Under the pieces are notes generated by a model. It saw only the letters and a program-made list of their open reading frames with translations, was not told where the DNA came from and made no database searches. From the IMG/VR virus record IMGVR_UViG_3300028809_000019, positions 1 through 50,088 of that record: a stretch of DNA of 50,088 bases; one strand, written 5' to 3'. Source of the DNA: a virus. Shown here one piece after another: positions 15,331 through 35,773 of the stretch. The translations under genes and the position numbers were made by a program. Position 1 is the first letter of the stretch; every line of letters starts with the position of its first letter.

Positions 15331-15684
15331 GTGCCGATTAAGAGAACCTTTAGACACGATTGGGCGCCCGGTTCCCGCCGTCGCGAGTATGACGGATATG
15401 CGATCAGCCCCGACAGCCCCTTTACGGTCTTCAAAGACCAGTCGGACGGGCGGTGGACGGTCGGTCACGAGCGGTCGGGGCTCGCTATCAATATGCTGAT
15501 CCCGCCGAAGCTCATGCGGTCAAAATTGCGGCTCCTTATGTGGCTGGAAGACATGGCGCGCGACATGCCGCTCGAGGTCGCCATGCTCGGTCTGGTCGAG
15601 TCGTCGGCCATGCTGTTCGGCGACGAGTTCCACGAATACGCGCAGTCATTGCTGGACTGGTCGGGGCGGTACGAGTGCATATGA
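15331..15684 (+). CDS. Hypothetical protein, first gene of rightward early operon
   Basis: The protein has 117 residues. The start is a GTG with AGGGAG 7 bases upstream. The sequence has an N-terminal basic part (IKRTFRHDWAPGSRRREYDG), a central beta segment and a helical C-terminal half (RLLMWLEDMARDMPLEVAM). It overlaps the next gene as ATGA. No family is recognised. Confidence 0.65.
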   Translation: MPIKRTFRHDWAPGSRRREYDGYAISPDSPFTVFKDQSDGRWTVGHERSGLAINMLIPPKLMRSKLRLLMWLEDMARDMPLEVAMLGLVESSAMLFGDEFHEYAQSLLDWSGRYECI

Positions 15685-16448
15685 TCGAGCGGGACGCAAG
15701 CGGCGTAGCGCATATTGTCGCCCTGTCCGGCGGCCACGACTCGACAATTATGTCGTTCTTGCTGAAGGAACGCGAACCCCGCCCGTATAATTATGTTTGC
15801 ACTCCGACCGGCGACGAGTTGCCCGAAATGTTCGGTTTCTGGAAGTGGCTCGGCTCGGACGAAGGGCTTGGTCGTCGATTGATTCCAATAATGAACGGAA
15901 CGTTGGCGTCGGTGATTGCCGATAATAAAACGCTCCCGAATTTCCGGCGACGGTTCTGCACGCGGATCCTGAAAATCGAGCCGTACCGTAAATTTCTAAT
16001 TGCTACGGCGGCCGAAGGTCCGGTCGTTTCGTATGTCGGATTATGGCACGACGAGCCGGGGCGTGCTGGCGGCGCGTATGCGGATATCGAAGGCGTCGAA
16101 ATGCGCTTCCCGCTGCGCGATTGGGAAATGGGCGAAACTGAAGTCCAGGCCGGTCTAGCCGAACGCGGCATTAAATGCCCAAACCGTACCGACTGCGCGC
16201 GCTGCTACCATCAGCGAATCGGCGAATGGTGGGAATTATGGTGGCATCATCGCGACCTTTGGGACTCGGCGGTCGCTGACGAACAAAAATATGGGGAGAC
16301 TTATCGAACGCCGGGTCGCGATAGCTGGCCCGCCGCGCTGATCGACCTGCAAACCCTGTTCGAACAAGGGACGTGGCCCGACATATCGCTTCAACGGATG
16401 GTCCGCGAGCGCCAGCAAAGCGGCTCTTGTAGGGTTTGTTCGCTATGA
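15681..16448 (+). CDS. PAPS reductase/DndC-like adenine nucleotide hydrolase family protein
   Basis: The protein has 255 residues. The PP-loop motif ALSGGHDSTIMSFLL (about 14-28) defines the adenine nucleotide alpha-hydrolase superfamily, which includes PAPS reductase and the DNA phosphorothioation protein DndC. Further support comes from TPTGDELPEMFGFW, RRFCTRILKIEPYRKFL (a conserved Cys-x(3)-K-x-x-P pattern) and Cys pairs in CPNRTDCARCYHQR and the terminal CRVCSL, which could hold an iron-sulfur cluster. The substrate cannot be read. Its place between early genes and the helicase favours a nucleic-acid or nucleotide modification role over sulfur assimilation. Confidence 0.8.
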   Translation: MIERDASGVAHIVALSGGHDSTIMSFLLKEREPRPYNYVCTPTGDELPEMFGFWKWLGSDEGLGRRLIPIMNGTLASVIADNKTLPNFRRRFCTRILKIEPYRKFLIATAAEGPVVSYVGLWHDEPGRAGGAYADIEGVEMRFPLRDWEMGETEVQAGLAERGIKCPNRTDCARCYHQRIGEWWELWWHHRDLWDSAVADEQKYGETYRTPGRDSWPAALIDLQTLFEQGTWPDISLQRMVRERQQSGSCRVCSL

Positions 16449-16598
16449 GCCGCGGGGAGTTTTTTTGCCAAATTGGCCGAACTGGAAAATTTCGCGGAAC
16501 AGCGGGCCGACACGTACCCGGAATATTCTGCCGAACGGGGGACGTGGAGTCGCGTTGCGCAATGCCTAGACCAAGCGCGCCGGGAGTTTCCCGAATGA
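16445..16598 (+). pseudogene. Small gene with a one-base frameshift in a run of seven T
   Basis: An ATG at 16445 overlaps the upstream TGA as ATGA, and a TGA at 16596 overlaps the helicase ATG as ATGA, exactly the packing used elsewhere. Between them the frame breaks at TTTTTTT (16460-16466). With one T removed (or a +1/-2 slip) the ORF reads MSRGEFFAKLAELENFAEQR and continues ADTYPEYSAERGTWSRVAQC to a 50-residue acidic helical protein. Either the run contains a sequencing or assembly error, the gene is decaying, or slippage is used. It is not a confident single-frame CDS as given. Confidence 0.65.
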
Positions 16599-18358
16599 TC
16601 CTGCGGCCATATCAGTCCGACATTACCAGCGAAGTCCGCCTATGGTGGGAACTCGGCCATAAAGTCGTCTGCGTCCAGCTGTCGACCGGCGGCGGCAAGA
16701 CTCCGATCCTGTCCGATCTGATCAACAATCACGGGGGGTTCGTTTGTGCCATTGCGCATCGTGATCGACTCGTAGAGCAGATTAGTTTGACGCTCGCCAA
16801 GGCCGGAATACGCCACGATCTAATCTGTTCGGACCGGTCGAAGAAGCTGATCGCCAAAAAGCACGTCCGCAAGCTCGGGCAATGCTTTTACGTGCCGGGC
16901 GCCCGCTGCCGGGTCGCATCGATCGACACGCTTGTCCGCGCCAAGGGGATCGACAAGTGGGCCGCGCAGGTCACGCTGTGGGTTGTCGACGAGGCGCACC
17001 ATCTGCTCCGCGCGAACAAATGGGGCCGCGGGCTCGAGCATTTTACCCATCCCCAATGCCACGGCCTGATGCTGACCGCCACGCCTGGACGGCCCGATCG
17101 GAAGGGACTCGGCAGGCACCGCAAGGGCTGCAACGGCGGGCCGTGCGAGGGGTGCGGCGATGGGCTGGCCGACGCGCTGGTTATCGGTCCGCCGATGCGC
17201 TGGCTGATCGACGAAGGGTATCTGTGCGACTATGACGTGGTTTGCCCGCCGACCGATCTTGTGGCGGCCGAAGCGCCGCGCGGGTCCGATGGCGACCTGA
17301 CGCGCGATCAGGTCCGCGAGGCCGAACGCGCCAGCCATATCGTCGGCGACATTCCGTCCCACTATCTCGAATGGGCGAAGGGTCTGTCGGGCGTTACGTT
17401 CGTCGGGTCGATCGAGACGGCAACCGACGTCGTGCGGTCGTTCAGAGAACGCGGCGTACCAGCGGAACTGATAACCGGCGATACTGACCCGACCGTTCGT
17501 GACCATATTTTCGAGAAGGCCGAAAGCGGCGAGATCCTGCAAATTGTGGCGGTCGACGTGATCAGCGAGGGCGTGGATATCCCAGCCCTGCAGGTCGGTT
17601 CGTTCGGGCGGTTGACCTGCTCGCATATCGTCTGGCTGCAGCAGTTGGGCCGCCTGCTCCGTCCGATCTATGCGCCGGGGTTCGATCTGGCGACTCGCAT
17701 GGGCCGACTGGCCGCTATCGCCGCGTCAAAGAAACCGAAGGCGCTGTTGATCGACCATATCGGCGGGTTCTGCAATCCATCGCTCGGACCGCCCGACAAG
17801 CCGCGGGTCTGGTCGCTCGAGCCGGGCGAGTCGCGCCAGGCGGCGGCCGATCCGGACGACATACCGAACCGCGTTTGCCTCAATCCCGACCCGCTACCGT
17901 CAGGCCGGCGGTGCTTCGCGCCTTATCCGCGCACGATGCGTAAATGTCCGAAATGCGGCTGGCACCCCGAACCGGCCAGTCGGGCCGCTCCTGAACATGT
18001 TGACGGCGATCTGCAACTGATGGACCCCGACGCGCTGGCAATCCTGCAGGGGCGGGTCATTCCGACGGATATGGACCGGACGACGCATGACGCGCAGCAA
18101 CTGGCCAAGGGCGCGCGGCCGGAATGGCTCGGGCGGCACTGGCGGAATTATGAGGCGACCAGTACGGCGCAATTGGCGCTGCGGGACGCGATGGACCGAT
18201 GGGCTGGCCGACTACACGCTGAGGGGCGGGCGGACTATGAGATTCAACGCGCATTCTATCTGGGGTACGGGGTGGACGTCGTGTCCGCGCAGTCGCTCGG
18301 GGCGGCGGACGCTACGGCCCTCAAATTGCGTATTGACGGTTCGGTCAATGGCCGCTAG
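16595..18358 (+). CDS. SF2 DEAH-box helicase
   Basis: This 587-residue superfamily 2 helicase is likely to be involved in phage DNA replication or recombination. Motifs in order: Walker A STGGGKT (about 29-35), Walker B DEAH (about 131-134), motif III TATPGR, a Cys/His-rich insertion CNGGPCEGCGDG after motif III, motif V region VISEGVDIPAL and motif VI QQLGRLLRP. A Cys pair near the C-terminus (CPKCGWHPEP) forms a second possible zinc site. The start at 16595 has CGGGAG 8 bases upstream and begins ILRPYQSDI, the usual Q-motif position. The last codons also encode the next promoter's operator. Confidence 0.92.
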   Translation: MILRPYQSDITSEVRLWWELGHKVVCVQLSTGGGKTPILSDLINNHGGFVCAIAHRDRLVEQISLTLAKAGIRHDLICSDRSKKLIAKKHVRKLGQCFYVPGARCRVASIDTLVRAKGIDKWAAQVTLWVVDEAHHLLRANKWGRGLEHFTHPQCHGLMLTATPGRPDRKGLGRHRKGCNGGPCEGCGDGLADALVIGPPMRWLIDEGYLCDYDVVCPPTDLVAAEAPRGSDGDLTRDQVREAERASHIVGDIPSHYLEWAKGLSGVTFVGSIETATDVVRSFRERGVPAELITGDTDPTVRDHIFEKAESGEILQIVAVDVISEGVDIPALQVGSFGRLTCSHIVWLQQLGRLLRPIYAPGFDLATRMGRLAAIAASKKPKALLIDHIGGFCNPSLGPPDKPRVWSLEPGESRQAAADPDDIPNRVCLNPDPLPSGRRCFAPYPRTMRKCPKCGWHPEPASRAAPEHVDGDLQLMDPDALAILQGRVIPTDMDRTTHDAQQLAKGARPEWLGRHWRNYEATSTAQLALRDAMDRWAGRLHAEGRADYEIQRAFYLGYGVDVVSAQSLGAADATALKLRIDGSVNGR

Positions 18359-18361
18359 GGC
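18332..18361 (+). promoter_or_regulatory. Early-type rightward promoter with operator
   Basis: The operator ATTGAC-GGTTCG-GTCAAT is at 18332-18349. The -35 is TTGACG (18333-18338), the spacer 17 bases and the -10 TAGGGC (18356-18361), preceded by GCCGC. The TAG of the -10 is the stop codon of the helicase gene. It matches the Caulobacter-type TTGACGG, 14 bases, GCTA pattern. Confidence 0.75.
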
Positions 18362-18386
18362 TGATCGTATTTAGGGAGACTTAAAG

Positions 18387-18587
18387 ATGAGTCGAGAATT
18401 TATGGTCCTGATCGTTCCCGAGCCTTCGGAAGATGCGATCGATTTGGACGACTCGCCGGCCCGCATTTTCATGCGATTTACCGAACCGCCCAGCGACGAC
18501 TTTCTGGGTCGACTGGCCGACGGAAATCCGGGTCACCGCGTTTACTGCCTGATGGGCGCGTCCTCTTGGTATTCGGGGCGGACATGA
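18387..18587 (+). CDS. Small acidic hypothetical protein
   Basis: This 66-residue protein, first of the operon after the 18332 promoter, has AGGGAGAC 7 bases upstream of its ATG. It begins MSREFMVLIVPEPSEDAID and is acidic throughout its first half. No family, signal or membrane segment is recognised. Confidence 0.65.
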   Translation: MSREFMVLIVPEPSEDAIDLDDSPARIFMRFTEPPSDDFLGRLADGNPGHRVYCLMGASSWYSGRT

Positions 18588-18609
18588 CCATATTTAAAGG
18601 AGACGAAAA

Positions 18610-19245
18610 ATGACCAACAGAGCTTTTCATAACGACACGTCGCTGGCTGTAACTGTCCGTACGCAGGTAGCCGACCACACGGTAGCCGACGAGATTATCC
18701 AAGGGAAATATTGGGAGAAAGGCAAAGGCTGCTTTATCGGCTGTATTGCCCATGGTTCGGACCCGTCGATCGTCGAGCAACTGACGGGCTTTCCGCTTAT
18801 GCTGACGAAACTGGCGGAAGGTATTTTCGAAAGCCTGCCGAACGAAGTGGCCAAAGGTTTCCCGCAGCGAATTATCGAAGCGCCTCGCATCGGCGCGGAC
18901 TTGTCGCTCGTGTCGTGGAAATTTCTGCATTGGCTGATTGACGACGTTCTGACGGAACATGCGGACGACAAGACTCGCGCGGCCTGCTCGCCGGCTCTTG
19001 AAATCGTTGCGGCAAAATCACGTGGTGAAGAAGTTTCTTCCGATGCCGCCGCCCGCGCCGCCGATGCCGCCGATGCCGCCGCCTATGCCGCCGCCTATGC
19101 CGCCGATGCCGCCGCCCGTGCCGCCCGTGCCGCCCGTGCCGCCGCCCGCGCCGCCGATGCCGCCGCCCGTGCCGCCGATGCCGCCGATGCCGCCGCCCGA
19201 ATCCGGCAGGCTGATAAACTGGTCGAACTACTAGGTGCGGCGTGA
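18610..19245 (+). CDS. Protein with long Ala-Asp/Arg repeat tail
   Basis: The protein has 211 residues. Residues 1-138 form an ordinary domain (GCFIGCIAHGSDPSIVEQL, GFPLMLTKLAEGIFESLP, FLHWLIDDVL) resembling phage proteins annotated as hypothetical beside helicases. From about 145 to 198 the sequence is a pentad-like repeat of Ala with Asp, Arg or Tyr (AARAADAADAAAYAAAYAAD), then RIRQADKLVELLGAA. Comparable repeat tails occur in many phage and bacterial proteins and would form long right-handed or helical stacks. AAAGGAGAC precedes the ATG. Function unknown. Confidence 0.75.
   Translation: MTNRAFHNDTSLAVTVRTQVADHTVADEIIQGKYWEKGKGCFIGCIAHGSDPSIVEQLTGFPLMLTKLAEGIFESLPNEVAKGFPQRIIEAPRIGADLSLVSWKFLHWLIDDVLTEHADDKTRAACSPALEIVAAKSRGEEVSSDAAARAADAADAAAYAAAYAADAAARAARAARAAARAADAAARAADAADAAARIRQADKLVELLGAA
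19043..19198 (+). repeat. GCC-rich trinucleotide/pentadecamer repeat
   Basis: The coding DNA of the Ala-rich tail consists of near-identical units such as gccgccgatgccgcc and gccgcccgtgccgcc. Units differ at the codons for Asp, Arg and Tyr only. Such arrays change length readily by slippage. Confidence 0.85.
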
Positions 19246-19466
19246 TGAAAGCCGCCATCAAAGACGCGTATATCGCCAAGCTCCAACAGCATTATCCGAC
19301 GCTCTATCTGCCGGGGTCCCGTCCGCTCGATCTGGCCGTAATGGCCGCCGACCGGGCGCTGGCCGGCGCGCTCAAACTGGAAGGCGAATGTTGGTCGGCC
19401 GCCGTCGAGGACGTTACGGGCCTGACGCGCTGGACGATGGCCGACCTTGCGAGGTTGCCGGAATGA
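19245..19466 (+). CDS. Small hypothetical protein
   Basis: This protein of 73 residues (74 if the adjacent GTG at 19242 is used) begins MKAAIKDAYIAKLQQHYPTL. The start overlaps the upstream TGA (TGATG). The middle ALAGALKLEGECWSAAVED is helical. The stop overlaps the next start as ATGA. The phrase GECWSAAVEDVTGL suggests a short nucleic-acid-associated protein, but no family is recognised. Confidence 0.65.
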   Translation: MKAAIKDAYIAKLQQHYPTLYLPGSRPLDLAVMAADRALAGALKLEGECWSAAVEDVTGLTRWTMADLARLPE

Positions 19467-19834
19467 GTTGGGCGAGCGACATTCTGCAGGCGTTGGAAAA
19501 CGGCCCGATGACCAATGCGCAATTGCAGACGGCAACGGGCATACGGTCCGCCAACATATCGAGCATTTGCAATTATTTGATCCGTAACGGGCGGATCCGC
19601 CGAGTCGATAGCGAAAAACCCGGTCGGGGCTATCCCGCCACCTACGCCACAACGGGCAAGCCCCCGCCGATAAAGAGCCTTACTCGGCTTCGCGCAACGA
19701 ACGCCGGGCTGCTAGAGGCGACGAGCCGCGCGCTGAAAATTCTAGAACGTAATCTCCATCGGCAAACCGAGAAATGCGACGACGCGGTAACGATCCTTCG
19801 TAAGGCGCTCTCCGATTATGGGGACTTGACGTGA
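19463..19834 (+). CDS. Winged-helix DNA-binding protein
   Basis: The protein has 123 residues. Residues 5-50 (DILQALENGPMTNAQLQTAT, then GIRSANISSICNYLIRNGRI and RRV) have the helix-turn-helix and wing arrangement of MarR/LexA-like winged helices. The C-terminal half is a helix (LEATSRALKILERNLHRQTE) that could dimerise. It is a candidate phage transcription regulator in the rightward early region. ATGA overlap with the upstream gene; GTGA overlap with the next. Confidence 0.7.
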   Translation: MSWASDILQALENGPMTNAQLQTATGIRSANISSICNYLIRNGRIRRVDSEKPGRGYPATYATTGKPPPIKSLTRLRATNAGLLEATSRALKILERNLHRQTEKCDDAVTILRKALSDYGDLT

Positions 19835-20109
19835 CGAGGGGTATCGTCCGCCCGATGGACTCGGCGCCTCGCACCGACGGCACGCGTATTCTGGTCCGTG
19901 TCGCGCAACTCGGTTCGATCCTTTTTCAACGCGAGCCCCGACCGCACCCCAAATATGGTTGGTTTAAGCTGAACGGCTGGGCCTGGCAGGAATGCTGGTT
20001 CGACGGCACGCATTGGCAACCGTGGTCCGGCAATTACGCCACGAAGTCGACTGGCGCTTGGCCCGACGATTTTGACTATGTGTCCGGTTGGTCCGAGTTG
20101 CCCGCATGA
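19831..20109 (+). CDS. DUF551-like small protein
   Basis: This 92-residue protein starts with GTG in a GTGA overlap. The N-terminal PMDSAPRTDGTRILVRV and the Trp-rich middle GWAWQECWFDGTHWQPW match the small beta domain found in many phage proteins (often labelled DUF551 or similar). It probably binds no cofactor; no catalytic residues are evident. Confidence 0.6.
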   Translation: MTRGIVRPMDSAPRTDGTRILVRVAQLGSILFQREPRPHPKYGWFKLNGWAWQECWFDGTHWQPWSGNYATKSTGAWPDDFDYVSGWSELPA

Positions 20110-20522
20110 GCGAGTCAGCCAATCAAAATCACATACGGCGCGTCCAGCACGACAAGGGCGATCGGCTCTATCGCAATAACCGCGGCGTGCTGAAAAACGA
20201 GAACGGCGTGCCTGTCCGTTACGGTCTGGCCAACTCGTCCAAAGAGGAAGCCGAGGTGCTTAAACCGGGCGACCTGATCGGCTGGGAGACGAGGCTAGTG
20301 ACCCCCGATATGGTCGGCACGCATGTTGCCGTTTTCAAGTCGATCGAGGTCAAGCCGGATGGCTGGAAACCGCCGGGCGTCGGGCCGATCAAAGACGCGC
20401 GCGGAAAGCTGACCGCTTACGGGCATTTTCTCGGTCAGAAAAATTGGGCGGATTTAGTGAACGACGAGGGCGGTATCGCCGGCTTTATGATCGATCCGGA
20501 TAGAGGGTTTGAACAGCTATGA
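20106..20522 (+). CDS. VRR-NUC domain nuclease
   Basis: The protein has 138 residues. The pattern VRYGLANSS, KPGDLIGWETRLVTPDM (D of the PD-(D/E)XK core), VAVFKSIEVKPDG (E-x-K) and GHFLGQKNWADLVNDEGG fits the stand-alone VRR-NUC family of PD-(D/E)XK nucleases. In phages these lie beside helicases and polymerases and are thought to act on branched DNA. The helicase gene is about 1.7 kb upstream in the same direction. ATGA overlaps at both ends. Confidence 0.85.
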   Translation: MSESANQNHIRRVQHDKGDRLYRNNRGVLKNENGVPVRYGLANSSKEEAEVLKPGDLIGWETRLVTPDMVGTHVAVFKSIEVKPDGWKPPGVGPIKDARGKLTAYGHFLGQKNWADLVNDEGGIAGFMIDPDRGFEQL

Positions 20523-20749
20523 GTATTATCCAGAATATCGAAGAATTTACGGCCGCTCGCCAAGCCGTCGAAGCGCATTGCATGTGTGCGCGGATCGAAG
20601 ACGCGGCGGGGAAACTGATCGTCTATTATCCCGAAGGGGACTTCCGGACGGCGGGTCTGCGGATCGATCGAAATGCCGTTATGCTGCGGCGGGCTCTTGA
20701 AATTATGGAACGCGAATGGCTCGCTTCGTTTCCGGGTGCCGCGTCGTGA
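20519..20749 (+). CDS. Small hypothetical protein
   Basis: This 76-residue protein begins MSIIQNIEEFTAARQAVEAH and contains a Cys pair (CMCA). It overlaps the nuclease stop as ATGA and its stop overlaps the methyltransferase start as GTGA. No family is recognised. Confidence 0.65.
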   Translation: MSIIQNIEEFTAARQAVEAHCMCARIEDAAGKLIVYYPEGDFRTAGLRIDRNAVMLRRALEIMEREWLASFPGAAS

Positions 20750-22131
20750 CTTGGGAACTGCACGAAATGGACTGTCGGCTCGCTATGGGGATGTTGATGG
20801 ATGCTGATAGCGTCGACAGTATCGTCTGCGATCCGCCTTATGGATTGAGCAAGGAACCGGACATGGCCGAGGTCTTGACGCACTGGCTGGCGGGCGACGA
20901 CTATGTGCATACCGGCTCGGGTTTTATGGGCAAGTCCTGGGACTCGTTCGTCCCCGGTCCGTCGGTATGGCGCGAAGCCTATCGCGTCCTGAAGCCCGGC
21001 GGTCATCTGGTCGCTTTTTTCGGGACGCGCACTTACGATCTGGGCGTGCTGGCGTTGCGCTTGGCGGGGTTCGAAATTCGCGATCAGCTTGCTTGGGTTT
21101 TTGGGTCAGGATTCCCGAAATCGCATGACGTGTCGAAGGGTATTGATAAGGCGCTCGGCGCGGAGCGGGCGAAGGTTGCTCCGCGTTCCGTCATTGGTCA
21201 TCAGCGCAATATCGGCAACCGCCGGCCCTATATGGACGACCCGGACCATCAGACCGACTCCGACGAACCTGCGAGCCCCGAAGCGGCCCAATGGCAAGGA
21301 TGGGGAACGGCGCTCAAACCGGCATACGAACCGATCGTCCTTGCCCGCAAGCCGCTGGTCGGGACGGTCGCGCGGAACGTCCTGTCGCATGGTACGGGGG
21401 CGCTTAATATCGATGGGTGTCGGGTGGGCGACGAGGGCGGCACGAAGGCCGTAAATCACGTCAAAAAAGCTGATGGTCGTTTGGAACGATGGGACGAACA
21501 GTTTGCGGGGGCGCGCAACGAAATTGAGTCGATCGGCAAGGGGAGGTGGCCTGCAAATTTTGCCCATGATGGAAGTCCGGAAGTGCTGGCGGAATTTCCC
21601 GTAACCGGCGCATCCAAGGCAACTCGCGGCCGGCGGACGGGCAAGTCCGCCGGGGTTCTCGGTGAATTTGCCGGACAGGACGACGTGACGATGGGCCACG
21701 ACGATCAGGGCGGGTCGGCTGCGCGCTTTTTCTATTGCGCCAAGGCCAGCAAGTCGGACCGTAACGAAGGGCTCGACGATCTGCCCGAGCAGCCCAGCGC
21801 CGCCAGTGAGTTTCGCCCGAACCACACTGCCAAAGCCGAAGCGGGCGAGGATGGCAACCCCTATGGCCGCTGGTCGCCCGTGCGCAATAATCACGCTACG
21901 GTAAAACCTACGGCCCTGATGCAATGGTTGGTTCGGCTCGTCACCCCGCCCGGCGGAACGGTCCTAGATCCGTTTACGGGTTCGGGCAGCACCGGCGTTG
22001 CGTGCGCTCGGGAAGGCTTTTCGTTTATTGGGTGCGAGATGACCACCGAGTACGTGCCGATCATTCGGGGACGGGTCGGCTACGCGTACGACAAGGCTGC
22101 GAGAGTTGACCATGCCGTCAATAGCCGCTAA
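20746..22131 (+). CDS. DNA N6-adenine or N4-cytosine methyltransferase
   Basis: The protein has 461 residues. Motif IV DPPYGLS (about 31-37) comes before motif I DPFTGSGSTGVAC (about 407-419), the order of beta-class amino-methyltransferases such as CcrM. GEVFMGKSWDSF-type text, PGGHLVAFFGTR and KPTALMQWLVRLVTPPGGTV are further family features. A long middle part (about 150-370) is the target-recognition region; the target cannot be deduced. It probably protects phage DNA from restriction, complementing the C5 enzyme at 733. The GTG start overlaps the upstream TGA; longer upstream ORF sequence would bury the previous gene. The stop codon is part of the next promoter. Confidence 0.9.
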   Translation: MTWELHEMDCRLAMGMLMDADSVDSIVCDPPYGLSKEPDMAEVLTHWLAGDDYVHTGSGFMGKSWDSFVPGPSVWREAYRVLKPGGHLVAFFGTRTYDLGVLALRLAGFEIRDQLAWVFGSGFPKSHDVSKGIDKALGAERAKVAPRSVIGHQRNIGNRRPYMDDPDHQTDSDEPASPEAAQWQGWGTALKPAYEPIVLARKPLVGTVARNVLSHGTGALNIDGCRVGDEGGTKAVNHVKKADGRLERWDEQFAGARNEIESIGKGRWPANFAHDGSPEVLAEFPVTGASKATRGRRTGKSAGVLGEFAGQDDVTMGHDDQGGSAARFFYCAKASKSDRNEGLDDLPEQPSAASEFRPNHTAKAEAGEDGNPYGRWSPVRNNHATVKPTALMQWLVRLVTPPGGTVLDPFTGSGSTGVACAREGFSFIGCEMTTEYVPIIRGRVGYAYDKAARVDHAVNSR

Positions 22132-22134
22132 GTC
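22105..22134 (+). promoter_or_regulatory. Early-type rightward promoter with operator
   Basis: The operator GTTGAC-CATGCC-GTCAAT is at 22105-22122. The -35 is TTGACC (22106-22111), the spacer 17 bases and the -10 TAAGTC (22129-22134), preceded by GCCGC. The TAA of the -10 is the stop codon of the methyltransferase gene, as at 18356. Confidence 0.75.
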
Positions 22135-22159
22135 TGCGCGAACCAACGGAGGCCAGACC

Positions 22160-22507
22160 ATGACGACCACGATTGATATTGACCCCCGCAACCACGAGCG
22201 GGACGCGGCGATCCTTGACGGGGCGCGTCGCCTTATCCGCAAGGAAGGACTCGAGCAGTTGCGGCGGGCCAAGCTCGCCAAATACGCCGGGATCAGTCCG
22301 ACCAGCGTTAATAATTTCGGACGGACCAGCCTGTCCAGCACGACGGCGGACCCTGCCGACGGTGGCTATCGCTCGCGGATCCTCAAAGTCCTGATGAAAC
22401 AGGCCGTCACCGATCGCGACATCGTCCTGATCGGCGCGGGGCTGGTCGATGGCTGTCTGTCGGCGGACGATCTGGACGGCGAGTTGCGCGCTATTATGGG
22501 GGTTTGA
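22160..22507 (+). CDS. TetR-like helix-turn-helix protein, candidate repressor
   Basis: The protein has 115 residues. Residues 15-60 (ILDGARRLIRKEGLEQLRRA, KLAKYAGISPTSVNNFGR) resemble the N-terminal DNA-binding domain of TetR-type regulators, with the turn AGIS and recognition helix TSVNNF. The remaining 55 residues are too short for a full ligand-binding domain. It is the first gene behind an operator-bearing promoter (22105), so autoregulation through the ATTGAC-N6-GTCAAT palindrome is an attractive inference. The ATG at 22160 has CGGAGG 8 bases upstream. Confidence 0.65.
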   Translation: MTTTIDIDPRNHERDAAILDGARRLIRKEGLEQLRRAKLAKYAGISPTSVNNFGRTSLSSTTADPADGGYRSRILKVLMKQAVTDRDIVLIGAGLVDGCLSADDLDGELRAIMGV

Positions 22508-22510
22508 CCG

Positions 22511-22690
22511 ATGGCCTATGCCGCCAACACGACGGTCCCGCTGGAATATCAGACTGGTCGTGCGGGTCCGCTGTTGCTGACCGAAGATACGGACGACGAT
22601 TACGGCTGCGAATATTGTCGGAATGACGGGCGACTTGTCGACGGCCGTTGTCCGAAGTGTGGTGCCGAATATTGGGATGACGAAGAATAG
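22511..22690 (+). CDS. Small zinc-ribbon protein
   Basis: This 59-residue ORF starts three bases after the HTH gene. It has an acidic centre (TEDTDDDYG) and two Cys pairs, CEYC and CPKC, spaced as in a rubredoxin-like zinc ribbon, ending GAEYWDDEE. It may act with the upstream regulator or with RNA polymerase, but this is inferred from size and position alone. Confidence 0.65.
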   Translation: MAYAANTTVPLEYQTGRAGPLLLTEDTDDDYGCEYCRNDGRLVDGRCPKCGAEYWDDEE

Positions 22691-22754
22691 GGGCGACCCC
22701 CCGTCCGCAGATTGATCGCCCCGACCATCCGTGCGCCCAGGGAGTAAACGCAAA

Positions 22755-22865
22755 GTGGCTGACCGAGACGTAGCACGGTTGACACTATTAGGTCTATCGG
22801 GGATTAAGGGCGGGCGGGGCGAGAATGCCGTTCTCTGCCGCCGCCCTGACCAACTACGTAGATGA
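22755..22865 (+). CDS. Possible 36-residue protein
   Basis: A GTG-start ORF preceded by GGGAG at 12 bases encodes MADRDVARLTLLGLSGIKGG then RGENAVLCRRPDQLRR. The spacing to the ribosome binding site is long and the composition is unremarkable. It fills most of the gap between two Cys-rich genes. Low confidence. Confidence 0.35.
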   Translation: MADRDVARLTLLGLSGIKGGRGENAVLCRRPDQLRR

Positions 22866-22875
22866 AGGATACGCT

Positions 22876-23118
22876 GTGGCTGACTTTTCTTTACAGTCTC
22901 AATTCCCCCGTTGCAAGAGTTGCCGGTTTTGGGCCGTCCCTTTGTCCGATTACGATAACGTAGCGGAATGCCGACGGAACCCGCCGAGCGTTGCGGGCGA
23001 CAAGATGCTGATCGGCATCCGCGGTAAGTCGCGGATAGGCAATCCGGTCGGTCCTCGCGGTATTTGGCCGCTTACCAACCAAGCGGACGGCTGCGGTCAG
23101 CACGAGCCGGACGCGTGA
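22876..23118 (+). CDS. Cys-rich metal-binding protein
   Basis: The protein has 80 residues from a GTG with AAGGA 6 bases upstream. CKSCRFW, CRRNPPS and the terminal GCGQHEPDA supply four spaced Cys residues, a pattern common in small phage proteins next to primases. The upstream in-frame ATG at 22825 would overlap the preceding ORF and lacks a binding site. The stop overlaps the primase start as GTGA. Confidence 0.65.
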   Translation: MADFSLQSQFPRCKSCRFWAVPLSDYDNVAECRRNPPSVAGDKMLIGIRGKSRIGNPVGPRGIWPLTNQADGCGQHEPDA

Positions 23119-25418
23119 CCGCCGATTGGTCCTTTGCCGCCCGCGGCTTTTCCGTCTTTCCGCTCGCCCATCACGCCAAGACTCCCGCAATCGAAGAGTG
23201 GATGCCTTACATGCACGCGCCGGCCTCGCCGTCGCTCATTGACGGGTGGGCCGCGCAATCATCGCTTAATATGGCCGTGGCTACCGGCGCGGTGTCAGGC
23301 TGTATCGTTCTCGACGCCGACAGCCTCTTATGTCGGATCGAAGTTGAAGCCCGAGGCATCCCCCGCACGCTGACCGTCCGAACTCCCCGCGGCACGCATT
23401 TTTATTTTGCGCACCCGGGTTGGCCTGTGTCAAACCGGGCTGGCGATAGGTGGGCCGGTATCTCGGGGCTCGATTTGCGAGCCGACGGCGGGTACGTGGT
23501 CGGCCCCGGCAGCTATTACGTCCCGACACCGGCCGAACTGGCCAAAGGCAAGGTCGAAGGCGGCTATGCCGTCGAGATAGACGCACCGCTTGCCCCCGCG
23601 CCTGACTGGCTGCTCGAGCTTACCATGGCCAAGGGACCGATCGCGCCAGCCGTGGCGCCCTGCTCGGCCGAAGAAACCAGCCCGTACGGTCGGGCCGCTT
23701 TGCACGGCGAGATTACCAAGCTGATCGAATGCAACGAAGGCGTCAGCAATCAGATTTACGTGACGGTTGCCCGTATTGCCGAACTGGTCGCGGGCGGCGA
23801 GATCCGCGAAGACGAGGGATGGGGTGCGATCGAAGAAGCGCTGCAGGCCAAAGGACTCGGCGACGAGGCGAAAGCCAACGGCACGGTCCATCGCGCTTGG
23901 GAAAAAGGATGTTCCAACCCCAAGGCGGTCAGGCATGCCGAACCGTTCGATCTGATGGCGGCATTAGGTTCCCGCGCTATGGTCGCACTTGACGACGTTC
24001 CGCCCCCGCCGACTCCCTATTTCGTGCCGCGGCGCAAGCCTGCGCATATCGGCGGAAATGAGCTTCAATGGTATTTCGAAGGCGTCGTCTATGTGGCGCG
24101 CCGTAATGAAATGTTCCTGCCGTCCGGCGTTATGGTCAAATCGAGCAGCTTCGACGGGATTTACGGCGGCCCCTCGTTTCATGTCGAGATGGACGGCGGC
24201 AAGCCCACGAAAAGCGCCTGGTCGATGTTCCGCGAGAATGTCCATATTGACATGCCAAAGGTCTGGGATATTTGCTTTCGGCCCGAGATGCCCCCCGGCC
24301 AGATCGTCCAGCTTGAGGGTCTGCCCTATCTGAACGTCTATGTCCCGATCGTCACGCCGCGCGCGGCCGGCGACCCTTCGCCGTTCGTCAACCATCTGCG
24401 CAAGATGTTGCCTTACGGGACCGATTGCGACTTGTTGCTCCATTGGATGGCGAGCGCGGTCCAGAACCACGGCAAGAAATTCTTCTGGTGGCCGGTCGTC
24501 CAGGGCGCGAAGGGCAACGGCAAGTCGCTCTTGCTGGAAGTGATGATCAAGGCGATCGGCGAGCGGTATAGCCATATGGTCCGCGCCGATGCGGTCCTGA
24601 AGACCGGGAACCAGTTCAACGACTGGCTGGTCGGCAAGCTGTTCCTCGGGTTCGGTGAGATTCGTTCGTCCGAGGGCAAGCGCGATTTTGTCGAGATTAT
24701 GAAGGACACGGTGACCGACCGCCGAGTCGCGACCGAAGGCAAAGGCCTCGGGCAGTCGACGAGCGACAACCGGGCCAACGGCATGATGCTCACTAACTGG
24801 CGGGATGCCTGCCCGATCGACGATGACGAACGGCGCTGGGGGGTCTTCTATACCGCCCAACAGAAAGCCGAGGATATCGCCCGCGACGGCATGGACGGCG
24901 ATTATTTCCCCGACCTTTACAAATGGCTCGACGCGGGCGGCTATGCGATCGTCACGCACTATCTGGCCAACTTCCCGCTGCGTGCGGAGATGGATCCGGC
25001 CCGCGGCCTGCACCGCGCGCCAGCCACGACCAGCACTGCCGCCGCAATCAACGAGTCGCTCGGCCTGGTCGAACAGGAACTGCAAGAGGCGATCGAGACG
25101 GGCGCCATGGGCTTCCGGGGTGGCGTGGCCACGTCGACCGGCCTGCGGGGCGTGCTATCCGCGCTGCGCAAGACGATTACCCCCAAGCGGTTCACGGCGA
25201 TCATGGAGTCGATCGGCTACGTCCGGCACCCCGCGCTCGAGTCGAATAAGTGGCGAGCCCATAACGCACTGTCCGACGGCTCGCGCCCGGTCCTTTATTT
25301 TACCGTCGGCCATGAATTGCTGACGCTGACAGATCCGATGGAAATTAAGGAAGGGGTTGAAGCGGCGCTAATTGGCAATCCTTCGGCCCCGTCGAATGTG
25401 GTCCCGTTCAGACGGTAA
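23115..25418 (+). CDS. Bifunctional primase-polymerase with SF3/D5-like helicase
   Basis: The protein has 767 residues. The N-terminal 190 residues match the archaeo-eukaryotic primase-polymerase (Prim-Pol, PF09250-type) domain: FAARGFSVFPLAHHAKTP, NMAVATGAVSGCIVLDAD (metal-binding D-x-D) and TPRGTHFYF. The C-terminal half is a D5/DUF5906-like helicase with Walker A GAKGNGKS (about 464-471), a Walker B-like FLGFGEI and the MMLTNW sensor region. It should prime and unwind at the origin, which appears to lie directly downstream (25498-25744). GTG start with GTGA overlap. Confidence 0.9.
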   Translation: MTADWSFAARGFSVFPLAHHAKTPAIEEWMPYMHAPASPSLIDGWAAQSSLNMAVATGAVSGCIVLDADSLLCRIEVEARGIPRTLTVRTPRGTHFYFAHPGWPVSNRAGDRWAGISGLDLRADGGYVVGPGSYYVPTPAELAKGKVEGGYAVEIDAPLAPAPDWLLELTMAKGPIAPAVAPCSAEETSPYGRAALHGEITKLIECNEGVSNQIYVTVARIAELVAGGEIREDEGWGAIEEALQAKGLGDEAKANGTVHRAWEKGCSNPKAVRHAEPFDLMAALGSRAMVALDDVPPPPTPYFVPRRKPAHIGGNELQWYFEGVVYVARRNEMFLPSGVMVKSSSFDGIYGGPSFHVEMDGGKPTKSAWSMFRENVHIDMPKVWDICFRPEMPPGQIVQLEGLPYLNVYVPIVTPRAAGDPSPFVNHLRKMLPYGTDCDLLLHWMASAVQNHGKKFFWWPVVQGAKGNGKSLLLEVMIKAIGERYSHMVRADAVLKTGNQFNDWLVGKLFLGFGEIRSSEGKRDFVEIMKDTVTDRRVATEGKGLGQSTSDNRANGMMLTNWRDACPIDDDERRWGVFYTAQQKAEDIARDGMDGDYFPDLYKWLDAGGYAIVTHYLANFPLRAEMDPARGLHRAPATTSTAAAINESLGLVEQELQEAIETGAMGFRGGVATSTGLRGVLSALRKTITPKRFTAIMESIGYVRHPALESNKWRAHNALSDGSRPVLYFTVGHELLTLTDPMEIKEGVEAALIGNPSAPSNVVPFRR

Positions 25419-25447
25419 ATTACATAAAATTATGGAAGCGGCTATAA

Positions 25448-25476
25448 GGCTCGGTAGGCAACTATCGGGCCTTTTT
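25448..25476 (+). terminator. Intrinsic terminator after primase-helicase
   Basis: A 10-pair stem (ggctcggtag / ctatcgggcc, two G-U pairs) with loop GCAA is followed directly by TTTTT. It lies 30 bases after the end of the early operon and separates it from the origin region. Confidence 0.8.
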
Positions 25477-25497
25477 AGTAATTATGGGTTTTTGATC

Positions 25498-25744
25498 GTG
25501 GATAACGTGTATTTATAAACCCACGGTTTTCTGCGGTTATCCACCATTATCCACGAATCCACGTAGAATCAGTTCGGTGGCTATGGGTGCGTGTGTATGT
25601 GCGCGCACGTATGTAACAATGTGTATATATGGTGGATAAGGTGGATAAGGTGGATAATATTATAAATAACTATTAGTTTTCAACTACTTAATGAACTATC
25701 CACGATTTTTCATAATTTATAGAATGGTGGATATGGGTGGATAA
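25498..25744. other. Putative replication origin with DnaA-box-like repeats
   Basis: This non-coding, AT-rich stretch holds TTATCCAC (or its complement GTGGATAA) exactly at 25498, 25537, 25547, 25632, 25641, 25650 and 25737. Seven-of-eight matches lie at 25696 and 25727. Three copies form a perfect tandem of the 9-mer GGTGGATAA at 25631-25657. TTATCCAC is the core of the bacterial DnaA box. An AT-only-like segment (ATATTATAAATAACTATTAG) follows the tandem and would melt easily. Location next to the primase-helicase gene supports an origin. Between 25745 and 25867 I see no further structure. Confidence 0.75.
25587..25615. other. 29-base alternating purine-pyrimidine tract (Z-DNA-prone)
   Basis: Every base alternates purine and pyrimidine for 29 positions, including the palindrome GTGCGCGCAC at the centre. 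Such tracts adopt left-handed DNA under negative supercoiling. It lies inside the origin region between the two groups of DnaA-like boxes. Confidence 0.7.
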
Positions 25745-25867
25745 CGCTAAATTACTGACAGATGCGGGTTGTCCGGTGGGACGCGGTTGGTTCGGGCAGA
25801 CGGGCAGGATTAGCGGTGATTGGCCGGACGCACCCGCAAGCCCGCTAACTTCGCGCGTGAACCGTCC

Positions 25868-25898
25868 CCTTGCCCCGGCCAGCCCCGGCCCGTATATT
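25868..25898 (+). promoter_or_regulatory. Late-type promoter of the packaging operon (leaderless)
   Basis: The -35 is CCTTGCCC (25868-25875), the spacer 17 bases and the -10 TATATT (25893-25898). The TerS ATG starts 7 bases after the -10 and has no Shine-Dalgarno site. It has no ATTGAC palindrome beside it. Confidence 0.6.
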
Positions 25899-25905
25899 GA
25901 CCGCC

Positions 25906-26968: not shown

Positions 26969-26970
26969 GG

Positions 26971-27000
26971 CTTGACGGCGCGGTCAATACTCGCTAGCTG
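26971..27000 (+). promoter_or_regulatory. Early-type promoter of the inserted cassette
   Basis: The operator CTTGAC-GGCGCG-GTCAAT is at 26971-26988. The -35 is TTGACG (26972-26977), the spacer 17 bases and the -10 TAGCTG (26995-27000), preceded by CTCGC. It places an early-type promoter in the middle of the late region. Confidence 0.75.
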
Positions 27001-27008
27001 TCGGGGCG

Positions 27009-27194
27009 AAGGGAGACTGACCGATGACCGTAACCGACAAGCAACGAGCAGCACGAGCCGCCGCATGGCGCAAGGCGCGCGAAAAGCTCGCCCCGTCCCT
27101 ATGGGTGCGTGCGGCGATTGACGGCCACCTTCAGGGCCGCTCGCCTATAGGCGTTGATCTGGCCGCCTCGCCCCGTAAGGGAGACTGACCGATG
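27009..27194 (+). repeat. Duplicated 18-bp ribosome-binding leader
   Basis: The string aagggagactgaccgatg occurs exactly at 27009-27026 and 27177-27194, each time carrying the binding site and ATG of a small gene. This points to a duplicated leader or to insertion of genes with a shared upstream module. Confidence 0.85.
27024..27188 (+). CDS. Small basic protein of accessory cassette
   Basis: This 54-residue ORF has AAGGGAGAC upstream. It begins MTVTDKQRAARAAAWRKARE and is strongly basic in the first half, so nucleic-acid binding is possible. It is the first gene after the 26971 promoter. No family is recognised. Confidence 0.6.
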   Translation: MTVTDKQRAARAAAWRKAREKLAPSLWVRAAIDGHLQGRSPIGVDLAASPRKGD

Positions 27195-27362
27195 CCGGGA
27201 CCACGAGGCAATCGAAAGCCCGTTAACGCCAGACGAACGGCTCGACGAGCCGACCCGGACGTCCCGTTCCCTTGGGCGGACCAACACCGCCAGCACCAGC
27301 AAGGCGATGAGATTGCCTGTTCGTGCGGTCGCCGCTGGCCGGTCGGGGAGAACCACCCGTGA
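27192..27362 (+). CDS. Small basic protein with Cys pair
   Basis: This 56-residue ORF begins MPGPRGNRKPVNARRTARRA and ends with CSCGRRWPVGENHP. Binding site GGGAGAC precedes it. The CSCGRRW element recurs in short phage zinc-binding proteins. Its stop overlaps the next gene's GTG (GTGA). Confidence 0.55.
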   Translation: MPGPRGNRKPVNARRTARRADPDVPFPWADQHRQHQQGDEIACSCGRRWPVGENHP

Positions 27363-30993: not shown

Positions 30994-32529
30994 ATGCTCG
31001 ATCGGTTCAAACAGTGGCTGAAAGCCTCCCCGGCGCCGGTAGTCGAGCAGCCCGTCGAGTCTGCGCGTCCGTCGATGACGATCAGCCTCGGGTCGCTCGC
31101 GCTCGCCAAGACACGGCCCGCTTCGACCAAAGCCGACCCTATGAAGCGCCCCGCCGAAGAGGTTTACGCGCCCTACCAATACGCGCCGGGCGTCGTCCCC
31201 GCCGAGATGGCGATGGACCATTCGGGACCGCTCGGCGGAAGCCAACTGACCAACTGGGCTCAGAGTGCACTATTCCACGAGGGCCAAGGGTTCTTCGGGT
31301 TCCCCTATCTGTCCGAACTGTTACAGCGGGCGGAATACCGGCACGCGGCGACTATCTGGGCCGAACATGCTGTCCGTAAGTGGATCAAGATAACGGGCGG
31401 CTCGGCCGACCAGCGCGCAAAGGTCGAGGCGGAATTTGACCGACTGGACGTGCGGACCGTTACGGAAGAATGGTGTTTTCTCGATCAAGGCTATGGGCGC
31501 GGTCAGATATTTCTGGACTTTGGCGACGCGGATAAGCCCGCCGAGCTGATCACGCCTTTGCGTCTGACAAAAACCAAGGTCAACCAGCGTCGACCGCTTC
31601 AGGCGCTCAAGGTCGTCGAACCCGTATGGGCGGCACCGGGCGTCTATGAGACGAGCAACCCGCTAAAGCAGAGTTTTTATAAGCCGAGCGAATGGATCGT
31701 TTACGGCAAGCGCGTGCATCACTCGCGGATGCTGACCATGACCAGCCGCCCCCTATCGGACATGCTGAAGCCCGCCTATGCGTTTGCGGGCCTATCGCTC
31801 GTCCAGATGATGAAGCCCTACGTGGATAACTGGCTGCGCACACGGCAAGCGGTATCCGATATGGTCAACAGCTATTCGATCCTGAACCTCAAGACGGACA
31901 TGTCGTCCACGATGGCCGGCGGCGATTGCTCGGAAGTTTTCAAGCGAGTCGAACTTGCCAACGACGGGCGCGACAACCGAGGCATGTGGGTCACGGACAA
32001 AGACACCGAGGAACTGGTAAATATTGCTGTCCCGCTGTCCGGTCTGCACGAATTGCAGCGGCAAGCCCACGAGCAATTGGCAAGCGTGGCGCGCATCCCG
32101 TTGTCGATCTATATTCAGGTATCGCCCACCGGTCTGAACGCGAACAGCGAGGGGGAGGCGCGCAATTTCTATGCGGACGTCCATTCGCTGCAAGAAAAGA
32201 ACATGCGGCCCGGTCTTTGCGTCATCTTGAAGGCCGTCCAACTCTCCCTGTTCGGCGAGTTGATCGACGGGATGGACTTTGAGTTCCTGCCGCTCTGGGA
32301 GATGGACGACAAGGACAAGGCCGAGATGCGCAAGGTCGATGCGGAGGCCGACGTGGCTTACACAACCGCAGGTATTGTCGATCCCGAAGAGGTCCGCACA
32401 CGCCTGTCGAACGACGAGAATAGCCTATACCACGGGGTCGATCTGACCGATCCGCCGCCCGGCTTTGGGAACGAAGGGACCGACGAAGACCCGAAGGACG
32501 GGGGGGCGCCCGATGCCCAAGACACTTAA
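30994..32529 (+). CDS. Portal protein (DUF1073-like)
   Basis: The protein has 511 residues. The order (after TerL, before the MuF-like gene) and text such as LLQRAEYRHAATIWAEHAVR, SRMLTMTSRPLSDMLKPAYA, LNLKTDMSS and PLSIYIQVSPTGLNANSEGE match the DUF1073 portal family. The ring would form the head vertex and DNA channel. The acidic C-terminus (DEDPKDGGAPDAQD) overlaps the next gene by 17 bases. AGGA lies upstream of the ATG. Confidence 0.9.
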   Translation: MLDRFKQWLKASPAPVVEQPVESARPSMTISLGSLALAKTRPASTKADPMKRPAEEVYAPYQYAPGVVPAEMAMDHSGPLGGSQLTNWAQSALFHEGQGFFGFPYLSELLQRAEYRHAATIWAEHAVRKWIKITGGSADQRAKVEAEFDRLDVRTVTEEWCFLDQGYGRGQIFLDFGDADKPAELITPLRLTKTKVNQRRPLQALKVVEPVWAAPGVYETSNPLKQSFYKPSEWIVYGKRVHHSRMLTMTSRPLSDMLKPAYAFAGLSLVQMMKPYVDNWLRTRQAVSDMVNSYSILNLKTDMSSTMAGGDCSEVFKRVELANDGRDNRGMWVTDKDTEELVNIAVPLSGLHELQRQAHEQLASVARIPLSIYIQVSPTGLNANSEGEARNFYADVHSLQEKNMRPGLCVILKAVQLSLFGELIDGMDFEFLPLWEMDDKDKAEMRKVDAEADVAYTTAGIVDPEEVRTRLSNDENSLYHGVDLTDPPPGFGNEGTDEDPKDGGAPDAQDT

Positions 32530-33318: not shown

Positions 33319-33345
33319 AGGCTTTCATAATTATTGGAGCCCCCA

Positions 33346-35769
33346 ATGGCCGACAGTTCCACCCTCATTGATCGAGTCAAGATTTTCGCGGAGTCGAGCG
33401 GTAGCGGTCCGTTCGTGCTGGGCAATGCGGTTCCGGCATTCCGGGGGGCGGAAGTTCTTACCGACGGTCTGACCTACAGCTACGCCGTCGAGAACGGGGC
33501 CGACTACGAGGCGGGCCAGTGCGTCTATGTCGCCGGAGCGAACCAGCTTCTCCGCACCCCGTCCATTTCCAGTGCGGGCGGTGCGCCCGTTCCCTTCCCG
33601 GCGAACGTGGCGATCATATTTACCGCCCTTGCCGCCGATCTGACTTCTTCGCTCGAGGGGACCGGCACGGTCCGCAGTGTCTCCGCGGATGGGGGGACGA
33701 CAGGTCTTGGCTTTACTGGAAGCCCGATCCAAGTCGAAGGGACGCTGGTTCTCGGCGGCGTGCTGAACGTTACGAATGGCGGCACGGGCGGGTCGACTGG
33801 GGCGGAAGCGCGAGCGGGTCTCGGGCTCGGCAATGTCGATAATACGAGCGACGCGAATAAACCGGTCAGCACCGCCACGCAGGTCGCTTTGGACACTAAA
33901 GTCGCTACGGCCGATCTAGCGGCGGCGGGCGGCAGTAGTCTTGTCGGCTATCAGCGCGCGGGCGCCGGAACGATTCTTTCGTCGGCAGCTAATCAATTTT
34001 CGCAACGTCTGTCCATTGACGATTTCGTCGGTGCCGACCGTACCGGGACGACGAGCAGTACCGCCGCAGCCGCCGCAGCCGCCGCCGTTTTGACCGATCA
34101 ACTTGGCGGACTTTCGCATTTTCAGGCAGGCACATATTTGTGCGCGATAACGATCGGCAACTCGCAGAATTGGCGGGGCGAAGGACCGACGTCCGAAATT
34201 AGTATCCCAGCGCCGTCCACGATCAAAAAAAATACGAATGGCGCAACCGTGACGATCGATGGCTACGCGGCCAGTCTATCCGAAATCGGGATAGACGGAA
34301 ATTCTGCGAACTTTTCCGGTGTTGGTGTCCATATCAAAAAAGCGCGTTTTCGGGCTTCGGGCGTTTCGATTAACGACACGGAGAGTCATGCCTTCCATCT
34401 TGATCCTGGCGCCGGGATCAATGGCAACGCGTGGCGGCTGAGTTCGATTTATTCCAACAGCGTCCTCGGCAGCGGTATGTATATCGACCATACCGGCAAC
34501 ACCCCGACGGGTTCATTTCCGTTCGGGCCGCCCGATATCAATGCGGGCTTCTCCGATCACGCCGTTATACTAAGTTCGACCGAGTACGGCGTCTATGGCG
34601 GAAACTCCATTGACAATGTCTTCATGGCTCCGGTCATCCAGAGCTGCGGGCGAGAGGGGATTTTCCTCGACGTTGGCGCGCAAGGGTATAAGATTTTCGC
34701 ACCATATCTGGAGGCCAATGGTTCTGATGCCTCTGGAAATGAACTGATCATCAAAGCCGGATCGACCCAGCATATTGTTATAGGAAACCGATATTGCCTG
34801 CCGGGGGCGGGCAGTAAATATCTTGATGAGAACGCGCCGGGCAAGAATTATATCGTCACCTATGAGGACGGAATTGGCCGTTTTGCTCATTGGGGCGAAA
34901 TTTCTGTTCTGAATCCTGATTTTACTGCCACCGGAGAAGTTCATTACCGTGCTTTTCTCGGCGCCAACGCCGACAACGTGTTCAACATGGTTGGAACGAT
35001 TCCGGCAGGTAATGGCGGTGCATGGGGCGTCGAAACAAAGCGCCTTGGTGATACGGCCATACGGCGGCTTTCGATCGATCACCTCGGTAATGGCTACGTG
35101 CAAAACGCCACCGCATGGACTTTCGGCAAGGCCGCAGCAGATACGACAACGCCGGGGCTTACGGTTTATGCCAATGGATCGCCGCGACTTGATTTTGTCG
35201 GGTCCGGCAGCGACCCGACGACCCTCACCGCGCACTACAACGCGAACGGCTTCGTTGGCGGCATTAGCATGTCGGGATCGGCGACGACTTACGGCACTTC
35301 GTCTGACCGACGGTTGAAAAAGAAGATCCAGCCGCTAGAGGGCGGTCTGGAACTGGTCGTCAAACTTCGTCCAGTTACCTTCGAATTTCGCAAAGATAAG
35401 TCCGGTGATCGCCACCAGGGTTTTATTGCAGATGAAGTTCAGAAGTTGCTACCTCTGGCGGTGATCGGCGATCCTGATGGCGAAATACAGCTTGGTCGGA
35501 TTGTCTTCAACGACACGAACGGCAGCGGTGAGGCGATCGAAGCCGCAGGCACGATCGTTATGGAGGATGTCCCGGAGCCTGTGCGACTGCCGGATGATAC
35601 GCACTTTGAGCCGACCAGAATGGGCAAGTGGTATCAAAGTCTCGACTTGGCGAAGATCGTGCCTGCGCTGACGGGCGCAGTTCAGGAACTCGCACGACGC
35701 GACGAGGCGAAAGACGTGGTGATTGCGGAGCTTATGCGCCGCCTGTCCGCTCTGGAAAAACGAGGATAG
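33346..35769 (+). CDS. Tailspike with S74 intramolecular chaperone
   Basis: The protein has 807 residues. The N-terminal part (about 1-110) is an attachment-like domain, followed by a collagen-like/neck region (GGTGGSTGAEARAGLGLGNV) and a beta-helix-like region (about 210-540, with FQAGTYLCAITIGNSQNWRG typical of pectate-lyase-like spikes). The C-terminal 155 residues contain TSSDRRLKKKIQPLEGG, the start of the peptidase S74 auto-cleaving chaperone with its Ser-Asp and Lys residues, and end in a coiled coil. The ATG at 33346 has GGAG 6 bases upstream. It lies among head genes, an unusual site for a receptor-binding protein. Confidence 0.88.
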   Translation: MADSSTLIDRVKIFAESSGSGPFVLGNAVPAFRGAEVLTDGLTYSYAVENGADYEAGQCVYVAGANQLLRTPSISSAGGAPVPFPANVAIIFTALAADLTSSLEGTGTVRSVSADGGTTGLGFTGSPIQVEGTLVLGGVLNVTNGGTGGSTGAEARAGLGLGNVDNTSDANKPVSTATQVALDTKVATADLAAAGGSSLVGYQRAGAGTILSSAANQFSQRLSIDDFVGADRTGTTSSTAAAAAAAAVLTDQLGGLSHFQAGTYLCAITIGNSQNWRGEGPTSEISIPAPSTIKKNTNGATVTIDGYAASLSEIGIDGNSANFSGVGVHIKKARFRASGVSINDTESHAFHLDPGAGINGNAWRLSSIYSNSVLGSGMYIDHTGNTPTGSFPFGPPDINAGFSDHAVILSSTEYGVYGGNSIDNVFMAPVIQSCGREGIFLDVGAQGYKIFAPYLEANGSDASGNELIIKAGSTQHIVIGNRYCLPGAGSKYLDENAPGKNYIVTYEDGIGRFAHWGEISVLNPDFTATGEVHYRAFLGANADNVFNMVGTIPAGNGGAWGVETKRLGDTAIRRLSIDHLGNGYVQNATAWTFGKAAADTTTPGLTVYANGSPRLDFVGSGSDPTTLTAHYNANGFVGGISMSGSATTYGTSSDRRLKKKIQPLEGGLELVVKLRPVTFEFRKDKSGDRHQGFIADEVQKLLPLAVIGDPDGEIQLGRIVFNDTNGSGEAIEAAGTIVMEDVPEPVRLPDDTHFEPTRMGKWYQSLDLAKIVPALTGAVQELARRDEAKDVVIAELMRRLSALEKRG

Positions 35770-35773
35770 TCGA

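Follow-up and report, generated by a model that had tools for sequence, protein, structure and literature searches.

A predicted phage replication origin of nine iterons, directly downstream of a PrimPol-helicase gene and exchanged together with it

The window, meaning the whole stretch of 50,088 nucleotides analyzed here (IMG/VR record IMGVR_UViG_3300028809_000019), is a phage genome of about 50 kb with terminase, portal, protease and tail genes, and is not an integrated satellite island. A direct terminal repeat of 126 bp (10-135 = 49963-50088) is a sign that the genome is complete and was assembled as a circle, so that an earlier note, made from the letters of the sequence, was correct to call it a phage; the first nine bases of the record fall outside the repeat match. 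The lineage is apparently virulent, and the phage has its own DNA polymerase gene (8269-10587). Two DNA methyltransferase genes occur at 733-2043 (minus strand) and 20716-22131 (plus strand), the second within the early/replication block. A phosphoadenosine phosphosulfate reductase-like gene (15453-16448, phrog_424) adjoins a DEAD-type helicase gene, and a tail-fibre-like gene (33334-35769) has an unusual place between the portal gene (30994-32529) and the head maturation protease gene (35723-37048). Dense GCATCGGCGGCA-type repeats are found at 18887-19350, within ORF 18610-19245, which encodes a protein without a family match.

The primase-helicase gene spans 23115-25418 on the plus strand. 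The listed open reading frame runs from 23064 to 25418; relatives, together with a break in homology at 23120, indicate the GTG at 23115 as the likely start. A hairpin followed by a run of T at the end of the gene (25446-25480, plus strand), seen by eye and by folding, resembles a terminator and was missed by a consensus terminator scan. From the stop codon to the gene for the terminase small subunit (TerS; Sf6-like, PF20901; 25906-26331, plus strand) lies a non-coding gap of 487 bp, 25419-25905 if the terS ATG is at 25906, which is AT-rich in the part that holds the array. The first iteron starts at 25497, placing the array immediately 3' of the PrimPol/DUF5906 gene, as the earlier note had said, and upstream of terS. 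That note also described the only long non-coding gap in the genome. By our survey, made with a crude ORF caller, it is the longest, but another of 354 bp lies at 26969-27322 and there are several of 150-290 bp. No GC-skew switch is seen at 25.6 kb; the cumulative minimum falls at about 14-15 kb, where gene orientation changes. Being dominated by gene strand in the window, GC skew was rejected as an indicator of an origin.

Motif search recovers TTATCCAC in seven exact copies, at 25537 and 25547 on the plus strand and at 25498, 25632, 25641, 25650 and 25737 on the minus strand, plus two copies with one change, CTATCCAC at 25696 (plus) and ATATCCAC at 25727 (minus), all within 247 bases. Of the nine or ten copies first proposed, nine stand; the possible tenth, ATAGCCACC at 25576, is weaker, with 2 mismatches in 9 bases. 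Outside the array only two exact copies occur (31822 and 49473). Dinucleotide shuffles predict 0.74 exact copies for the whole genome; shuffles of the gap itself give an expectation of 0.03 and a maximum of 2, against 7 observed.

Taken as nine-base units, the iterons form an ordered series. Iteron 1 (TTATCCACG) is at 25497-25505 on the minus strand, and iterons 2 and 3 (TTATCCACC, TTATCCACG) make up a left inverted pair at 25537-25555 on the plus strand. Iterons 4-6 are a perfect threefold tandem of GGTGGATAA with a 9-bp pitch (25631-25657, minus strand), followed, as first described, by AT-rich DNA. This AT-rich core (25658-25695), a proposed melting site, reaches to iteron 7 (CTATCCACG, 25696-25704, plus strand), which opposes the tandem at 47 bp from its last copy. 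Iterons 8 and 9 (ATATCCACC, TTATCCACC) form a right pair at 25726-25744 on the minus strand. Between the left pair and the tandem lies a 29-bp tract of alternating purines and pyrimidines, prone to Z-DNA (GTGCGTGTGTATGTGCGCGCACGTATGTA, 25587-25615). Such tracts exceed the lengths found in shuffles (at most 3 of 500 shuffles) in the window and in the relatives L071, L076, L112, L114 and L117, and do so in most of the relatives with a DUF5906-type helicase that were examined; by the same comparison the tract is absent in L010 and L072. The array strand folds better than its shuffles (z -4.1), partly because the iterons are inverted, and the best stem pairs iterons 2-3 with the tandem copies. In the left arm, an element resembling TTTTCTGCGG is shared by some relatives only and was left out of the analysis. 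A search of viral contigs for exact GGTGGATAAGGTGGATAA returned one chance match, within a coding gene (L003), and BLASTN of the gap against phage records returned a single match of 30 bp.

The primase-helicase carries PrimPol (PF09250) and DUF5906 (PF19263) domains, and its AlphaFold2 model has a mean pLDDT of 83.9. In the modelled protein a PrimPol domain (about residues 20-185) is followed by a helix bundle (207-284) and, after a disordered linker, by an SF3-type helicase (330-650); the C-terminus (668-750) resembles a winged helix. VIA-align gives the C-terminal region (CTR) of the NrS-1 protein, 6k9c, as the best structural match of the helicase part (Z 25.4, rmsd 5.2, 372 residues aligned), so that here a PrimPol domain is joined to a ring helicase of NrS-1 type. 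For the helicase part the same method also gives the SaPI5 primase-helicase 7ola at Z 17.8 and PriRep1 with double-stranded DNA, 7pds, at Z 13.9, and it scores the pRN1 primase 3m1m at Z 14.7. The predicted winged helix, encoded at about 25065-25313 on the plus strand, is our proposed reader of the iterons. Modelled alone it has a core pLDDT of about 90; fold comparison brings up mainly winged-helix proteins, weakly (best Z 6.1), and a Foldseek search with this model found no significant similarity. The primase was not recovered by single-protein scans of viral and genome contigs, and an alignment scan of the genome contigs gave one distant match, L192, which suggests that few such primase genes exist in the bacterial genomes searched.

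Gaps in relatives, which we designate by L numbers, have similar layouts built from different words. These include GTGGGTA (L074, L076), GTGTGTA (L113), GTGTGGGA/AGGTGTG (L112), CGGGTTA (L114), GGACCGA (L115), AGGTGTA (L117), CGGGGTA (L116, L119 and phage JD001), TGGGAAG (L127), GTGGTA (L133) and CTGTCA (L189). Counting as significant any gap whose repeat score exceeded those of all 100 shuffles, we found 32 of 156 gaps significant downstream of the primase gene and 0 of 75 upstream (93 loci; Fisher p 2e-6, an optimistic value since the relatives are not independent); one of the 32, AGTTCAT in JD001, is something other than the proposed origin. By the strict test, 35 relatives whose sequence continues for at least 4.5 kb downstream have no significant array; some of them (L004, L166, L167 and L132) have degenerate or smaller ones. 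Repeats were also seen in other settings. In L007 (Agrobacterium phage 7-7-1), AAAGACTC / ATTGAGTC occurs five times in an AT-rich gap far from the primase gene (40732-41056), whereas the search next to that gene yielded no array. In a non-coding gap of L164 (8711-8820), a tandem of AGCGGCTACA units runs to about ten nearly perfect copies, and similar words, GCGGCTA, occur in L138, L141 and L152.

The distance that separates the last copy of the tandem from the first opposing iteron, across the AT-rich core, is 41-47 bp in 14 arrays and in two more when the motif is relaxed. It is 47 bp in the window and L133; 46 in L074, L073, L076, L113, L112 and L117; 45 in L010, L189 and L166; 44 in L119; 43 in L116 and JD001; and 41 in L127 and LAPP1. 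The relaxed motif gives 45 bp in L114 and 43 in L171. L072, with 52 bp between strict copies or about 43 if a degenerate third copy is used, was left uncounted. Being closely related, L073, L074 and L076 are best taken as a single case, and the spacing is missing in other arrays, among them L163, L128, L132, L173 and L184. Since the motifs were picked by eye for each array, the spacing is a pattern to test rather than a blinded statistic.

The closest relative of the window, IMGVR_UViG_3300006033_000079 (L010/L069), differs from it by what appears to be a natural exchange. Its TerS, TerL and portal proteins are 97%, 89% and 77% identical to those of the window, and DNA identity is 82-92% on both flanks (22807-23120, and from 25806 onwards). 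Blocks of homology run from 16595 to 23120, just inside the start codon of the primase-helicase gene, and resume at 25806, so that only this gene and the iteron gap have been replaced (exchange cassette 23121-25805, plus strand). The L010 primase-helicase has VapE-like and NrS-1 helix-bundle Pfam domains and did not match the window protein in protein comparison. Its gap has a layout comparable to that of the window, with RGGAAC/GGTTCC eight times (GGTTCCC words), including inverted copies on the left and on the right and, as a tandem of three, TAGGAACC TAGGAACC TAGGAACT.

Replacement of the array along with the primase-helicase, while the neighbouring genes and terS are kept, counts against a reading of the repeats by host DnaA, by neighbouring regulators or by TerS. 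An array between the early/replication genes and terS, near genes for HTH-like proteins, might be the operator of a phage regulator for late genes from terS on. The HTH-like or small neighbour genes are kept in L010, however (22106-22507 at 94%, 22825-23118 at 79%), as is the sequence just upstream of terS (25806-25905); what the two phages share does not set iteron identity, and we regard an operator as very unlikely. Packaging sites (pac or cos) usually lie just upstream of terS, which is where the array stands, yet a TerS 97% identical faces a wholly different array in L010, making recognition by the small terminase extremely improbable.

The earlier note left the choice between host DnaA and an iteron binder of the phage's own. 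For DnaA, which would start replication through an oriC-like open complex, there is the fact that the first eight bases of the repeat, TTATCCAC, are the core of an E. coli-type DnaA box and that the copies flank an AT-rich stretch, as in the box clusters of bacterial oriC. Unlike in those clusters, TTATCCAC is followed by C or G in each of the nine copies and never by the consensus A, the word varies among relatives, and the repeats are inherited with a phage gene. TTWTNCACA has no match in the window gap or in 18 equivalent gaps of relatives, including that of the Klebsiella phage JD001, and close relatives, JD001 again among them, have the same layout with unrelated words. Moreover, the word was swapped with the primase-helicase between phages whose near-identical flanks suggest a similar host. 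We therefore consider recruitment of DnaA quite unlikely, and the resemblance is best seen as chance, arising in one iteron of a series that varies greatly. The other half of the suggestion, an iteron binder of the phage's own, is supported by the cassette swap, by the conserved geometry and by a natural chimera.

This chimera is the primase-helicase of L072. Its PrimPol half (residues 1-304) is 52% identical to that of the window, its helicase/C-terminal half is 55% identical to that of L010, and its gap has RGGAAC seven times, at offsets from the gene stop close to those in L010. A window-like PrimPol half thus occurs with iterons of L010 type, and iteron type appears to follow the C-terminal half of the initiator, which ends in the predicted winged helix. 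Swap and chimera were each seen once. Across 26 loci, iteron similarity correlates weakly and positively with protein identity (Mantel r 0.14-0.22), too weakly to separate the domains, and the C-terminal domain is not singled out.

The chimera also bears on another reading, in which the PrimPol domain at the N-terminus primes de novo on the repeats as template sites, and these are not double-strand iterons bound by a winged helix. Its models are the GTG motif used by pRN1 ORF904 and the TTTGGTTA / GTGG sites of the NrS-1 polymerase. Every iteron of the window holds GTGG, described as an efficient priming motif of the NrS-1 polymerase, and one that contains the GTG of ORF904 (PMC8718748). The PrimPol domain of the window is related to ORF904, and SCCmec elements prime at iterons (PMC7581432). 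L072, however, combines a window-like PrimPol half with RGGAAC iterons; L114, L115 and L071 also align with the N-terminal half of the window protein and have iterons without GTG; TTTGGTTA has 0 matches in the window; and the strict spacing and convergent orientation suit assembly on double-stranded DNA better. Priming sites instead of iterons thus seem unlikely, although the two roles could coexist.

We conclude, with a probability of roughly 0.78, that the region is the replication origin of the phage and that its nine iterons are read by the adjoining PrimPol-helicase through its C-terminal winged helix; the assignment of reading to that domain draws on the swap and the chimera. On the model of SaPI Rep and SCCmec Cch2, monomers of the initiator would attach to the tandem and to the opposing iterons, which flank the core of about 38 bp. 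SF3-type helicase domains would then assemble at the core, probably as two hexamers, the AT-rich DNA would melt, the PrimPol domain would prime the exposed strands, and the phage's own DNA polymerase would extend them; DnaA would not be the reader of the repeats. The recurring parts (tandem iterons, an AT-rich gap of about 45 bp, an opposing iteron and often a Z-DNA-prone tract) may represent an undescribed class of origin in a large, apparently virulent phage lineage, in which a helicase loading site of fixed geometry carries a fast-diversifying word of 7-9 bp and is exchanged with its initiator gene, a proposal to which we give even odds. If true, each phage would have a private replication code.

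Literature searches, in which few subscription journals were covered, turned up no published iteron origin for a phage with this helicase, and no mapping of origin and initiator for Jedunavirus-like phages or others with a DUF5906-type helicase. The analysis predicts both, including for the cultured phages JD001 and LAPP1, where direct tests are possible, and its interest is for that reason moderate to good. The natural swap and the natural chimera are ready tests, and variable words at fixed spacing are a data set for winged-helix specificity. As a warning, clusters resembling DnaA boxes in phages should not be called DnaA origins.

Several known systems share parts of this arrangement. The alpha protein of satellite phage P4 unites primase, helicase and origin binder, as proposed here, and acts with short iterons near AT-rich DNA; P4, unlike the window, needs two separate sites (ori1 and crr). 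The NrS-1 primase-polymerase has the same succession of PrimPol domain, helix bundle and ring helicase. The accessible parts of the reports on it describe two copies of an 8-nt template site in mid-genome, a possible origin (PMC7102993, PMC8718748), and describe no iteron array; TTTGGTTA, absent from the window, belongs to NrS-1 and need not apply to its relatives. In pRN1, ORF904 has a PrimPol domain, an SF3 helicase and a winged helix, and an essential origin-like element, a stem-loop of about 100 bp, lies directly downstream of its own gene (PMC4234260). Its authors proposed that related phages do likewise and found no origin-like iterons in phage BIP-1 (PMC4234260); in the window iterons dominate, though the strand folds better than its shuffles.

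The best reading is a self-contained origin like those of SaPIs and other PICIs, with the phage primase-helicase as initiator. PICI origins have two sets of iterons around an AT-rich region just 3' of pri-rep, a layout that the authors of that work found in no other known replicon (PMC6092414). The C-terminal domain of SaPI Rep binds iterons directly downstream of its gene, and the isolated C-terminal domain of SCCmec Cch2 binds its repeats (PMC7581432). The window likewise has two iteron sets flanking an AT-rich region directly 3' of the initiator gene, a helicase of similar fold (7ola, 7pds) and, by prediction, a C-terminal winged helix that may read the iterons. It differs as a complete phage with its own virion and polymerase genes and a helicase of NrS-1/DUF5906 type, and a PICI-type layout in phages of full size would connect the replication modules of satellites and phages. 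What sets the window and its relatives apart from SaPIs and PICIs is the recurring tandem of two or three copies, the constant gap of 41-47 bp and the alternating purine-pyrimidine tract.
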